A DNA stretch of 64,000 nt from Terriglobus albidus. Its GTDB lineage: Bacteria > Acidobacteriota > Terriglobia > Terriglobales > Acidobacteriaceae. Below the pieces are notes generated by a model, which searched no databases, was not told where the DNA came from, and saw only the letters and a list, made by a program, of their open reading frames with translations. The first letter of the stretch is position 1. The number at the start of each line of letters is the position of its first letter. Both the position numbers and the translations under genes were made by a program. Shown in pieces: positions 39,942-43,033 of the stretch. The stretch lies in contig NZ_JAGTAS010000027.1 in assembly GCF_025685425.1 (NCBI RefSeq), positions 1 through 64,000 on the forward strand, in the 5' to 3' direction.

Positions 39942-41165
39942 TTAGTACTTCGGCATGGTCGGGTCGATCTTCTCGGCCCAGGCCAGGATGCCCCCGGCTA
40001 CGTTCTTCACGTTGGAGAAGCCTGCAGCCTTCAGCTCGAGTGCGGCCTTCTGGCTGCGCGCGCCGGAACGGCAGTGGAGCAACACTTCCTTGTCCTTGTA
40101 CTGCGCCAGCTCGTTGAGTTTGGAACCGATCTCGCCCAGCGGATACAGCGGAGCTCCGAGGTTGGCGATGCGGTACTCGTGCGGCTCACGAACGTCGATC
40201 AGCACAAAATCGTCACCGCGGTCGCGCTTGGCCTTCAGCTCTTCCACGGTGATCTGCGGAATGCCGTCCTGGACAGGAACGTCACCTACGGCTGCGTGCT
40301 GCGCTACCTCCAGCGGGCCGGTGGTAGTCGGCGGAGCAATGCCGCAGAACTGGTCGTAATCGATCAGCTCTTTGATCTCGTGCGTTCCGCACATCGGGCA
40401 CTTCGGATTCTTGCGCAGCTTCAGCGTGCGGAAGCTCATTGACAGAGAATCCACGAGCAGCAGGCGGCCGACGAGGGGCTCGCCAATACCGAGGATCAGC
40501 TTGATGACCTCGGTGGCCTGAATCACGCCGACCAGACCGGGCAGAATGCCCAGCACGCCGCCCTCGGCGCAGGACGGAACCAGTCCCGGCGGTGGCGGCT
40601 CCGGATAGAGGCAACGGTAGCAGGGGCCTTCCTCCGTGGCGAAGACCGAAGCCTGGCCCTCGAAGCGGAAGATGGAGCCGTAGGCGTTGGGCTTGTTCAG
40701 CAGCACGCAGGCATCGTTGACCAGGTAGCGGGTCTGGAAGTTGTCGGTGCCGTCAGCGATGATGTCGTAGTCCTTGAAGATCTCAAGGGCGTTGTCGCTG
40801 CGCAGCATGACGTTGTGCTTCACCACGTTCATGTACGGGTTCAGATCTTTGAGCTTCTTCTCGGCGGAGTCGACCTTCAGCTGGCCGACGGTCGAGGTCG
40901 AATGGATGATCTGGCGCTGTAGATTGCTGGCGTCGACGACGTCGAAGTCCACCAGACCAAGCGTGCCGATGCCGGCAGCGGCGAGGTAGTAGGCAAGCGG
41001 AGCGCCCAGGCCGCCGGTGCCGACGCACAGGACCTTGGCGGCCTTCAGCTTCTGCTGGCCTTCAAAGCCCACCTCGGGCAGGATCAGGTGGCGCGAGTAG
41101 CGCGAGATTTCATCGTTCGACAGTTCCGGGAGTGCGACTTCTTTCAAATCAGGCATGGTAGGCAT
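39942..41165 (-). CDS. moeZ: MoeZ-like adenylyltransferase with C-terminal rhodanese domain
   Basis: A 407-residue E1-like enzyme that adenylates the C-terminal glycine of a ubiquitin-like sulfur carrier and then passes sulfur to it. Residues about 20-265: ThiF/MoeB fold with GTGGLGAPLAYYLAAAGIG, DASNLQRQ, DGTDNFQTRY and two zinc-binding Cys pairs (CYRCLYPE, CPMCGTHE). Residues about 300-400: rhodanese domain with the active-site loop CRSGARS. In mycobacteria MoeZ serves the CysO carrier. It is the last gene of the cysM-mec-carrier operon; the 97-base gap before it contains a repeat fragment (41201-41241). Confidence 0.9.
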   Translation of the reverse strand: MPTMPDLKEVALPELSNDEISRYSRHLILPEVGFEGQQKLKAAKVLCVGTGGLGAPLAYYLAAAGIGTLGLVDFDVVDASNLQRQIIHSTSTVGQLKVDSAEKKLKDLNPYMNVVKHNVMLRSDNALEIFKDYDIIADGTDNFQTRYLVNDACVLLNKPNAYGSIFRFEGQASVFATEEGPCYRCLYPEPPPPGLVPSCAEGGVLGILPGLVGVIQATEVIKLILGIGEPLVGRLLLVDSLSMSFRTLKLRKNPKCPMCGTHEIKELIDYDQFCGIAPPTTTGPLEVAQHAAVGDVPVQDGIPQITVEELKAKRDRGDDFVLIDVREPHEYRIANLGAPLYPLGEIGSKLNELAQYKDKEVLLHCRSGARSQKAALELKAAGFSNVKNVAGGILAWAEKIDPTMPKY

Positions 41166-41262
41166 GGTGTGGTCCTTCGGCTGACTGAGCCGTAAGGCGA
41201 AGAAGCAGATCCTTCGCTTCGCTCAGGATGACAAAAAAAGGAAATGTCAGAAGGGATGCTGT

Positions 41263-41583
41263 CTAGCGACAACAAAGAGCGCGCGAAGCGCTTACGCCTG
41301 GACGGCCAGTCCTGCCGCCGGCGATGGAAGGAATAATGGTGAGCTCGTCATCGGCGCTGACTGCGGAGGCCTCGGCGGCGGGCAGATAGCGGACGTCGTC
41401 ATCGTTCAGGTAGACGTTGACGAAGCTGCGCAGCTTGCCGTCCGGGGTGAAGAGGTGGTTCTTCAGCTCGGGGTGGGCGGCGACCAGTGCATCGAGCCCG
41501 GCCTGAACCGTGGCGCCGTTTACCTCCACGGTGGCTTGCTTGTCCGTGAACGCCCGGAGCGGTGTCGGGATGTTGATCTTCAT
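41263..41583 (-). CDS. MoaD/ThiS-family sulfur carrier (CysO-like) with residues beyond the Gly-Gly
   Basis: A ubiquitin-like sulfur carrier for cysteine synthesis, 106 residues. The beta-grasp body starts MKINIPTPLRAFTDKQATVEV and reaches the usual end TIIPSIAGG at residues 82-90. Mature carriers end at this Gly-Gly, where a thiocarboxylate is formed. Here 16 more residues follow (RTGRPGVSASRALCCR), so the protein would need cleavage before use. The next gene upstream encodes a JAMM protease, and the two overlap by four bases (ATGA). Alternatively the extension results from a lost native stop codon. Confidence 0.85.
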   Translation of the reverse strand: MKINIPTPLRAFTDKQATVEVNGATVQAGLDALVAAHPELKNHLFTPDGKLRSFVNVYLNDDDVRYLPAAEASAVSADDELTIIPSIAGGRTGRPGVSASRALCCR

Positions 41584-42035
41584 GCGTTTTCTCCAACTGC
41601 TTCTGTGATCAGAATCTCTTCCTGCTGAAAAGCTTTGTCATCTTCGGTGGTGCCGCTGAGGTGAAAGGCATTGGTCAGGTTGGCCTTACCCTTGTCGACG
41701 CTGGTGATGACGTAACAGCAGCCGAACCAGTGAGCCTCGGCGAAGTCGGTCGAAGACCACATCGCCGGATGGTCCGGATGCGAGTGGTAGAAGCCCACGA
41801 TGTCCAGGCCCTGTTTGCGGCCTTCGCGCTGAATCTTAATGAGTTCTATCGGGCTGATGTTGTAACGATTGTGCGCGCTGTCGGTACGGGTATTGCCGGC
41901 GCGGACGATCGCGGCGACGTGATTGCCGTCGTCTTTGGCGTGGCCCAGCATGACGCCGCAGCACTCATGGGGATACGTCTCCTCGCCATGGGCGCGGAGG
42001 GCATCGTAATCGGCTTGTGTGATGTGGAGTTTCAT
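41580..42035 (-). CDS. mec: JAMM/MPN-family metallopeptidase (Mec-like)
   Basis: A 151-residue zinc peptidase of the JAB1/MPN+ type. The catalytic set is complete: Glu24, then His84-x-His86-Pro with Ser94 and Asp97 (HSHPDHPAMWSSTD). The mycobacterial homologue Mec cuts newly made cysteine off the CysO carrier; related proteins also remove C-terminal residues from sulfur-carrier precursors. It overlaps both neighbours by four bases, between cysM and the carrier gene, which makes coupled translation likely. Confidence 0.9.
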   Translation of the reverse strand: MKLHITQADYDALRAHGEETYPHECCGVMLGHAKDDGNHVAAIVRAGNTRTDSAHNRYNISPIELIKIQREGRKQGLDIVGFYHSHPDHPAMWSSTDFAEAHWFGCCYVITSVDKGKANLTNAFHLSGTTEDDKAFQQEEILITEAVGENA

Positions 42036-43033
42036 TCCTGCCAGAACCGTTCGCTGAGATATTTGTCTGCGGAGTCGCAGAAGATAGTAACGATGATGGC
42101 CTCGCGTCCGGCGGAAACCTCTTCCTCGGCAATGTGCAGCGCCGTGGCGACGTTGGCGGCTGAGGAGATGCCCATCAGGATGCCCTCTTCGCGGGCAATG
42201 CGCTTTGCCATCACGTAAGCCTCTTCGGTGGAGGCCTCAACCAGACGGTCCGCAAGCTTGGGATCGTAGATCGGCGGCACGATCGCCGTCGGCATGTGCT
42301 TCAGGCCTTCGAGTCCGTTGAAGGGCGAGTCCGGCTGCATCGAGATGCACTGGATCTTTGGGTTCAGCTCGCGGAGGCGGCGCGTGGTGCCCATGAAGGT
42401 GCCGGAGGTGCCAAGGCCCGCGACAAAGTGCGTCAGGCGCCCATCGGTCTGCTGCCAGATCTCGTTGGCGGTGGTCTTGTAGTGTGCCAGCCAGTTGTTA
42501 TTGTTCGAGTACTGATCGGCGTAGAAGTACTTGTCAGGCTCAGCGGCGGCCAGCTCACGCGCCTTGCGGATAGCACCGTCGGAGCCATCTGCCGGATCGG
42601 TCAGAACAATGTTTGCGCCATACGCAGCGAGGATCTTCTTACGCTCCGGCGAGGCATTTGACGGGAGGCAGAGCGTGACCGGGAAGCCCATGGCCGCGCC
42701 CAGCATGGCATAGGCGATACCGGTGTTACCGCTGGTAGCGTCAAGCAGGTGCTTTCCGGGTGTCAGCTTGCCTTCGCGCTGCGCGGCGAGAACGATGTGC
42801 GAGGCGGGACGATCCTTCACGCTGCCGCCGGGATTCGCCCACTCCGCTTTGCCCAACAGGACGATGCCGGGCAGCTTGGCTGTCAGGCGGTCCAGACGGA
42901 CGAGCGGTGTATTTCCAACCCGATCGAGCACTGAGGTGCCAAGGGTAGAGGCGTTGGCGCCGGAGATTTGGGTTTCCGTCAGCAAAACTGTGATTTCCGT
43001 TCCTGTCGCGGGCGGCCTCGAGGCGGGCAGCAA
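42032..43033 (-). CDS. cysM: Cysteine synthase, CysM-like (sulfur-carrier dependent)
   Basis: A PLP enzyme that forms cysteine from an activated serine and a sulfur donor. Motifs: VLDRVGNTPLVRL, the PLP lysine in GSVKDRPA, the ATSGNTG phosphate/substrate loop, and HFVAGLGTSGTFMGTTRRL, which is closest in my memory to mycobacterial CysM that uses CysO thiocarboxylate. Operon context supports this. The start is uncertain: 43033 is a TTG only 31 bases from a divergent gene, a second TTG lies at 42985, and a GTG opens the conserved region. No strong ribosome site decides it. Confidence 0.88.
   Translation of the reverse strand: MLPASRPPATGTEITVLLTETQISGANASTLGTSVLDRVGNTPLVRLDRLTAKLPGIVLLGKAEWANPGGSVKDRPASHIVLAAQREGKLTPGKHLLDATSGNTGIAYAMLGAAMGFPVTLCLPSNASPERKKILAAYGANIVLTDPADGSDGAIRKARELAAAEPDKYFYADQYSNNNNWLAHYKTTANEIWQQTDGRLTHFVAGLGTSGTFMGTTRRLRELNPKIQCISMQPDSPFNGLEGLKHMPTAIVPPIYDPKLADRLVEASTEEAYVMAKRIAREEGILMGISSAANVATALHIAEEEVSAGREAIIVTIFCDSADKYLSERFWQE

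Follow-up and report, generated by a model that had tools for sequence, protein, structure and literature searches.

The window, by which we mean the whole 64,000-nucleotide stretch of Terriglobus albidus DNA that was analysed, carries on its minus strand a set of genes in the order cysteine synthase, JAMM metalloprotease and sulfur carrier, with an E1 enzyme 97 nt downstream of the carrier. The first three genes overlap by four bases each, synthase with JAMM at 42032-42035 and JAMM with carrier at 41580-41583, as the earlier note had described. The features of the set are:

42032..43033, minus strand: CysM/CysK-type cysteine synthase (PALP), which opens the set (PALP E 2.9e-69)
41580..42035, minus strand: JAMM metalloprotease, Mec/desampylase-like (Prok-JAB E 1.5e-22; complete HxHx7SxxD)
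41263-41583, minus strand: sulfur carrier of the ThiS/MoaD fold, 106 aa (ThiS family, Pfam E 3.5e-10)
41314..41583, minus strand: carrier core, residues 1-90, ending in SIAGG (ThiS E 3.5e-10)
41266..41313, minus strand: carrier tail, residues 91-106, RTGRPGVSASRALCCR (recurs in 5/5 genomes of the nearest clade)
41269..41274, minus strand: two consecutive Cys codons, TGT TGT, then CGC and the stop codon TAG; proposed to sense cysteine (TGT is preferred in tails)
41257..41274, minus strand: imperfect inverted repeat TGTTGTC-GCTA-GACAGCA around the carrier stop codon (read from the sequence)
41166..41262, minus strand: 97-nt gap from carrier to E1 (site of a separate poly-Cys short ORF in relatives of another clade)
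39942..41165, minus strand: MoeZ/MoeB-like E1 with rhodanese (ThiF E 2.5e-81, rhodanese E 1.5e-13)

The synthase, for which the TTG start codon is uncertain, matches cysteine synthases generally; the nearest solved structure is 2bhs, named 'cysteine synthase B', 3dki was also matched, and the NCBIfam cysM and cysKM matches lie below the cut-off. The JAMM protein has the full active site that the earlier note had reported, HSHPDHPAMWSSTD, which reads as HxHx7SxxD. Its closest solved structure is 2kcq (E 1.7e-27), it matches the NCBIfam model desamp_Halo below the cut-off (E 2.1e-24), and the genome has no other JAMM match at E <= 0.001. The carrier matches the NCBIfam model SAMP1 below the cut-off; its nearest solved chains, 4n6e_B and 3dwg_C (the latter being CysO of M. 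tuberculosis), both have their C-terminus at Gly-Gly. The E1 scores above the cut-off of the NCBIfam MoeB models, and the next match in the genome is only 33% identical to it over the E1 part; we infer that it is the E1 of the set that activates the carrier.

In the CysO-CysM-Mec cysteine pathway of mycobacteria, a ThiS/MoaD-type carrier works with a CysM-like synthase, a JAMM protease and a MoeZ-like E1, and CysM uses O-phosphoserine and the thiocarboxylated carrier. The window contains the same four protein types, including a ThiS-fold carrier with Gly-Gly and a complete JAMM motif, the likeness of its synthase to CysM consisting of PALP homology only. It differs in two respects: the solved CysO chain ends at Gly-Gly, whereas each of the 160 relatives carries residues or an E1 beyond it, and the E1 is here a member of the gene set and is preceded by Cys codons. 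The operon type itself (ThiS/MoaD, JAB, E1-rhodanese and cysteine synthase) is listed with an acidobacterium in row 4c of Iyer et al. 2006 (PMC1779556), where release of fused ThiS/MoaD by JAB proteins was already suggested.

The translation confirms that the carrier passes its SIAGG end, at residue 90, by the 16 residues that had been pointed out before, including the Cys-Cys pair; the tail RTGRPGVSASRALCCR ends in LCCR. The residue directly after Gly-Gly is an arginine, and the Cys pair begins 14 residues on. Recurrence of the tail in related acidobacteria, which the earlier note had put forward as a check, is indeed found: in the nearest clade of five genomes (L001-L005) the tails are 16, 15, 12, 12 and 12 residues long and every one ends in LCCR*, so that CCR is kept in 5/5 close genomes despite in-frame changes in length. 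A local loss of the stop codon in the window is rejected, since tails recur throughout the related loci described below, and the presence of the tail in all five close genomes does not support a frameshift or an assembly error as its origin. The inverted repeat around the stop codon is perfect in L003 and L004 and imperfect in the window; in L002, a palindromic stretch of about 110 bases is inserted beside the carrier stop and splits the repeat. In the carrier-E1 gap of the window, positions 41205-41233 read TGTCATCCTGAGCGAAGCGAAGGATCTGC on the minus strand. Near copies follow the carriers of L003 and L004, and from its sequence the stretch looks like a dispersed repeat.

Relatives were gathered by searching 61 genomes, 250 family genomes and a set of named genomes (80 loci), which together with 80 further fetched stretches gave 216 loci. 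In the family search, at least 178 of the 250 genomes matched at E <= 1e-15; 26 new loci were taken from it and the 80 stretches were added. After leaving out L023 (early stop, no Gly-Gly in frame) and 43 loci of other groups, 172 loci were kept, corresponding to 160 unique Acidobacteria-type loci, 144 with an unfused carrier and 16 with a carrier-E1 fusion. The fusion count is a lower bound, since it leaves out seven carriers of the family listing whose open frames span 495-531 aa and which are probably fusions, others further down that listing, and several of the same kind from the 61-genome search. A quick tree was calculated with 147 rows, the other 13 of the 160 loci having too short an E1. 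We call a tail poly-Cys when it has at least three Cys in eight residues, and a separate short open reading frame (sORF) strong when it has at least four in eight.

Residues after Gly-Gly are the rule in these loci. None of the 160 carriers ends at Gly-Gly: a tail of at least one residue follows in 144 and the E1 continues the chain in 16, while the Gly-Gly itself is present in 160/160, all 16 fusions included. Among the 43 loci from other groups, an exact Gly-Gly end was found in five (L062, L079, L096, L102 and L107). In L006-L011, L013, L015, L017, L019, L021, L027, L046/L125, L059, L060 and L066 the carrier runs in frame into the N-terminus of its own E1, and the linkers of these fusions showed no Cys. 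On the starred branches of the quick tree, the fused state requires at least four changes (gains or losses). Conservation of Gly-Gly at an internal fusion junction is most sensibly explained if the junction is cut.

A candidate protease is nearly always encoded. A JAMM gene was found in 60/61 related genomes, the missing case being a genome that is 73% complete, and in 19/20 further genomes chosen from the 32 loci without a JAMM gene in the fetched stretch, in some of them within a few kilobases; the missing case is here 69% complete. The HxHx7SxxD motif is present in 127 of the 128 JAMM matches read; the one that lacks it is a partial match. Within the fetched stretch, JAMM accompanies 18/22 loci with a poly-Cys tail and 7/19 with a short ORF. 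The universal presence of residues after Gly-Gly, the Gly-Gly kept in fusions and the near-universal JAMM gene make trimming by JAMM the likely maturation step of the carrier, and judging from these sequences, removal of the residues after Gly-Gly seems general in these loci.

There are precedents for such maturation. QbsE is a carrier made with a blocking C-terminal sequence and matured by the JAMM protein QbsD. The loci studied here resemble QbsE/QbsD, as well as the MoaD-MoaE fusion cut by DRJAMM, in having a C-terminal block on the carrier, a JAMM gene nearby or in the genome and Gly-Gly at the junction; they differ in that the block is a Cys-run tail or an E1 and in that cleavage is predicted from sequence. 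Deinococcus DRJAMM cleaves the MoaD-MoaE fusion and leaves a C-terminal Gly (PMC8832034). Literature searches for QbsE/QbsD and for HcyS/HcyD gave no relevant description among the matches listed.

The earlier note had proposed that the carrier is a pro-protein, and on the evidence of the 160 loci it was probably right in that the residues after Gly-Gly must go. In its plainest form the proposal says that the tail just blocks the carrier until JAMM trims it, the tail sequence being unimportant. The absence of carriers ending at Gly-Gly, the Gly-Gly retained in 16/16 fusions, the JAMM gene in 60/61 genomes and the DRJAMM precedent (PMC8832034) all agree with it. It leaves unexplained why 17.1% of tail residues are Cys, encoded with TGT, and why separate poly-Cys sORFs have the same signature (see below), and we hold this plain form, as a complete account, to be rather doubtful. 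The part of the earlier proposal that is not supported is the tail as a mere pro-peptide, because in relatives runs of Cys also occur in independent short ORFs, with the TGT signature.

Other carriers with residues after Gly-Gly were noticed. The second ThiS/MoaD-like carrier of the window's genome (contig C22, L262:1661-1942), which follows a gene that resembles threonine synthase as judged by eye, also passes Gly-Gly, ending in SIAGG-CV; as the genome has a sole JAMM match, one protease might serve both carriers. In L072, L073, L075, L077 and L083, from SAR324 and related bacteria, the gene order is carrier-E1-JAMM and the tails start with Cys (GG-C, GG-CSTVKNS and similar) and have no Cys run. 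L093, a Desulfovibrio metagenome-assembled genome, has a 69-residue tail after Gly-Gly which contains three Cys and overlaps the E1 start.

The composition of the tails is unusual. Cys makes up 17.1% of 1,097 tail residues, while the carrier cores contain none in 12,827 residues. The tails differ greatly in length and in the sequence of their middle part. In many of them Cys residues lie near the stop codon, as CCR, CCCR or CCCNL and, in other genera, as CCCPACCC, RCCCPACCCR, CCCRSSCCCLR or ACSCCCCR. A poly-Cys tail is found in 22/144 unfused loci, to which the window, with two Cys, does not belong. Among 647 other ORFs of at least 150 aa in the same loci, a few of which may be over-extended carriers, only four have at least three Cys in eight residues near the C-terminus (0/44 in the window). 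The remaining unfused tails contain one Cys in 46/144 loci, two in 14 (window included) and, at looser spacing, three in two and four in two; neither a tail Cys nor a strong sORF is found in 39/144. A scan of whole loci, which missed clusters close to the stop codon, gave 48 clusters of Cys codons on the forward and 43 on the reverse strand, and the forward excess is confined to the tail and the gap. A genome-wide pattern count of Cys codon runs was uninformative, as TGCTGCTGC encodes Leu/Ala repeats in other frames.

In L037, L117 and L119 a convergent gene, which we take to be GH27 alpha-galactosidase-like, separates carrier and E1; L117 and L119 keep poly-Cys tails despite this, while the L037 tail has one Cys only. 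A gap of at least 80 nt is present in 91/101 loci with any tail Cys compared with 18/36 without (raw Fisher p 1.7e-6), and the association is also seen at two or more Cys (raw Fisher p 0.0012). On independent pairs, no association of gap length with two or more Cys was found (median p 1), and gap length was set aside as support.

The variability of the tails raises the alternative of neutral drift, in which trimming of the carrier end makes loss of the stop codon free, random DNA is read as tail and the CCR of the window is a functionless leftover. The highly variable length and middle sequence, the many Cys-free tails and the repeat-like stretch in the window gap favour this view, and drift may indeed explain the Cys-free tails. 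It does not account for poly-Cys near the stop in 22/144 tails against 4/647 control ORFs, nor for the CCR kept through in-frame length changes in 5/5 close genomes; further points on either side come from the sORFs and the codons used.

A separate poly-Cys sORF lies between carrier and E1 in 19/144 unfused loci, in which the tails hold no Cys; examples are MPRYSACCCCCCPSCCCR, MDRFPMNATCHTRRCCCCCR, MKFLVTSRCCCCSSCCLL and MKPSFTSRCCCCPRCR. A poly-Cys tail and a separate sORF occur together in 0/144 loci. In the same gaps, the opposite strand has no sORF with at least four Cys in eight (0/144), the forward scan having also included 60 nt before the carrier stop; at the looser threshold of at least three in eight, 20 were found forward and five in reverse. 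Shuffled gaps gave a mean of 0.16 sORFs per round and a maximum of two in 100 rounds. In 12/19 sORFs the longest frame starts between -4 and +14 nt from the carrier stop codon, which means that the same ribosomes could read the tail form or the sORF form.

All 19 sORF loci fall in one starred clade of 37 rows, intermixed with five poly-Cys tails, and the window lies outside it. In the tree's other half, which has 88 rows and includes the window, there are 13 poly-Cys tails and no strong sORF; the element is therefore known there as a tail only, a point in favour of drift as far as the window is concerned. The tail of L197, placed among sORF neighbours, has internal Met codons ahead of RCCCPACCCR and, from its sequence, resembles the short ORF of a neighbour translated in the carrier frame.

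Tails and sORFs also share a codon signature. TGT:TGC is 139:49 in tails (74% TGT) and 83:32 in sORFs (72%), compared with 204:1706 (11%) in matched stretches of the operon's genes, while other NNY codons shift only mildly (T 36%, 28% and 23%). With 49 spaced representatives, one per lineage (43 unfused), and the residue next to Gly-Gly excluded, the ratios are 40:11 and 80:549, with 15 loci up and two down. Such a bias is another feature that drift leaves unaccounted for, and overall we judge drift unlikely as the origin of the window tail.

A third alternative is that the tail Cys act at the protein level, as a metal or redox site or, directly after Gly-Gly, by mimicking the CysO-Cys adduct recognised by Mec-type JAMM proteins. 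Cys is the commonest residue after Gly-Gly (37/160), and Gly-Gly-Cys is also seen where the tail starts in several SAR324-type carriers and in the second carrier encoded by the window's genome. Unlike the Cys of runs, a lone Cys directly after Gly-Gly is mostly encoded by TGC (16/22), suggesting that Gly-Gly-Cys may be a separate, protein-level matter that reflects the protease or the CysO-Cys adduct. The window has Arg at this position, with the Cys pair well beyond it, 19 loci encode poly-Cys as a separate peptide, and the codon signature that tail and sORF share in these sequences is not what a pure protein-level role would predict, making such a role for the tail Cys quite improbable.

Runs of Cys that occur in a tail or in an independent sORF, with their own TGT signature, look like a leader-peptide element. 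By analogy with published cases, Cys codon runs near the stop and ahead of a cysteine-metabolism gene characterise cysteine attenuation, whether proposed or demonstrated. Cys-run leader peptides with Cys near the stop precede mycobacterial cys operons, for which no terminator was found either (PMC1262725). Polycysteine ORFs have been reported to adjust translation to the cysteine supply (Canestrari 2020, as described in PMC9031893 and cited in PMC9094748 and PMC13236596). For the uORFC-8-2 element, a UGC-dominated tandem-Cys uORF before cysS, a mechanism based on a pair of adjacent Cys codons has been proposed (PMC8632094). The loci described here share with the mycobacterial cys leaders and uORFC-8-2 the Cys codons in a row before a cysteine-metabolism gene; they differ in that the element lies inside an operon, between carrier and E1, alternates with the carrier's own C-terminus and is dominated by TGT. 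The literature search for such a cysteine leader yielded none on Acidobacteria or on a sulfur-carrier tail among the matches listed, and the available parts of surveys that name Acidobacteria contained no cysteine leader there.

In the window, tandem Cys codons are found near the stop ahead of a cysteine-pathway gene, as in an attenuator, and they lie in the carrier frame instead of in a separate short leader ORF. With TGT TGT CGC TAG, the window has a short form of the element, with two tandem Cys codons as in uORFC-8-2 (PMC8632094).

Signals at the RNA level were also sought. In six hand-picked Granulicella-type leaders, the Cys codons lie within a hairpin formed with the sequence just after the stop codon, and a second hairpin has three compensated pairs, each change occurring in one sequence; the total covariation term of the six-row fold is slightly unfavourable (+0.47), and a wider alignment of 17 Granulicella-type rows did not yield a consensus fold. 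Alifold energies are low compared with column-shuffled alignments, a control that probably overstates the difference, in 6/7 hand-made groups. Conserved hairpins and inverted repeats around the stop codon are thus suggestive only, with the six-row structure as weak evidence, and a hairpin around the stop as a general feature was rejected, being equally common in loci without Cys. No conserved terminator was found in these loci; around the window genes there are two terminator-like sites, with 2.0 expected by chance, one of them a stem within the tail codons immediately ahead of the two Cys codons. The search for sigma-70-like promoters around the window genes gave none, and Rfam gave 0 matches at the gathering score in 12 loci.

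We propose that the tail is a leader element which senses cysteine and, lying in the carrier frame, is translated as an extension of the carrier's C-terminus that can be removed. From the tail, the gene overlaps, the recurrence, the alternation of sORF and tail, the TGT bias and the fusions that keep Gly-Gly, all of them read in sequences, we infer the stalling, the direction of regulation, the cleavage site, the role of JAMM and a working two-codon form in the window. Ribosomes nearing the end of the carrier would come upon Cys codons, for the most part TGT, shortly before the E1 gene. With charged tRNA-Cys scarce they would slow there, which could alter RNA folding or the coupling of ribosome and RNA polymerase in the gap and raise E1 expression; more E1 would then lead to more thiocarboxylation of the carrier and more cysteine synthesis, and with plentiful cysteine E1 would be attenuated. 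The carrier must end in Gly-Gly for activation, so the tail would be removed by JAMM, and in relatives something would have to remove the short ends or the E1 partner. Since the protease must trim the carrier anyway, a sensor in its tail would be tolerable. The sORF form would be an ordinary leader and the tail form a sensor merged into the carrier.

Several observations count against this leader reading of the tail. The window has only two Cys codons, in CCR, many loci have one Cys or none, and in L117 and L119 the tail is still poly-Cys with another gene lying between it and E1; the window could be a decayed case of the element. Since the clade that contains every sORF does not include the window, we slightly lowered our confidence in the reading of the tail as a sensing element, and now regard it as evenly poised. 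The fuller statement, that the carrier gene has absorbed a leader peptide, its sensing codons forming a C-terminal pro-peptide, with cutting by JAMM allowing the merger and with the element free or as a tail in relatives, is put forward more tentatively, at somewhat below even likelihood.

Reading the tail as a leader peptide goes beyond the interpretation in the earlier note, from which it was absent. Judging from the sequences, the parts are known ones and the arrangement new, the carrier tail probably being an in-frame version of a poly-Cys leader. The tail may then be more than packaging, a possible built-in gauge of the cell's cysteine supply. If this is true, a regulatory element can live within the C-terminus of a protein because a protease removes that element.
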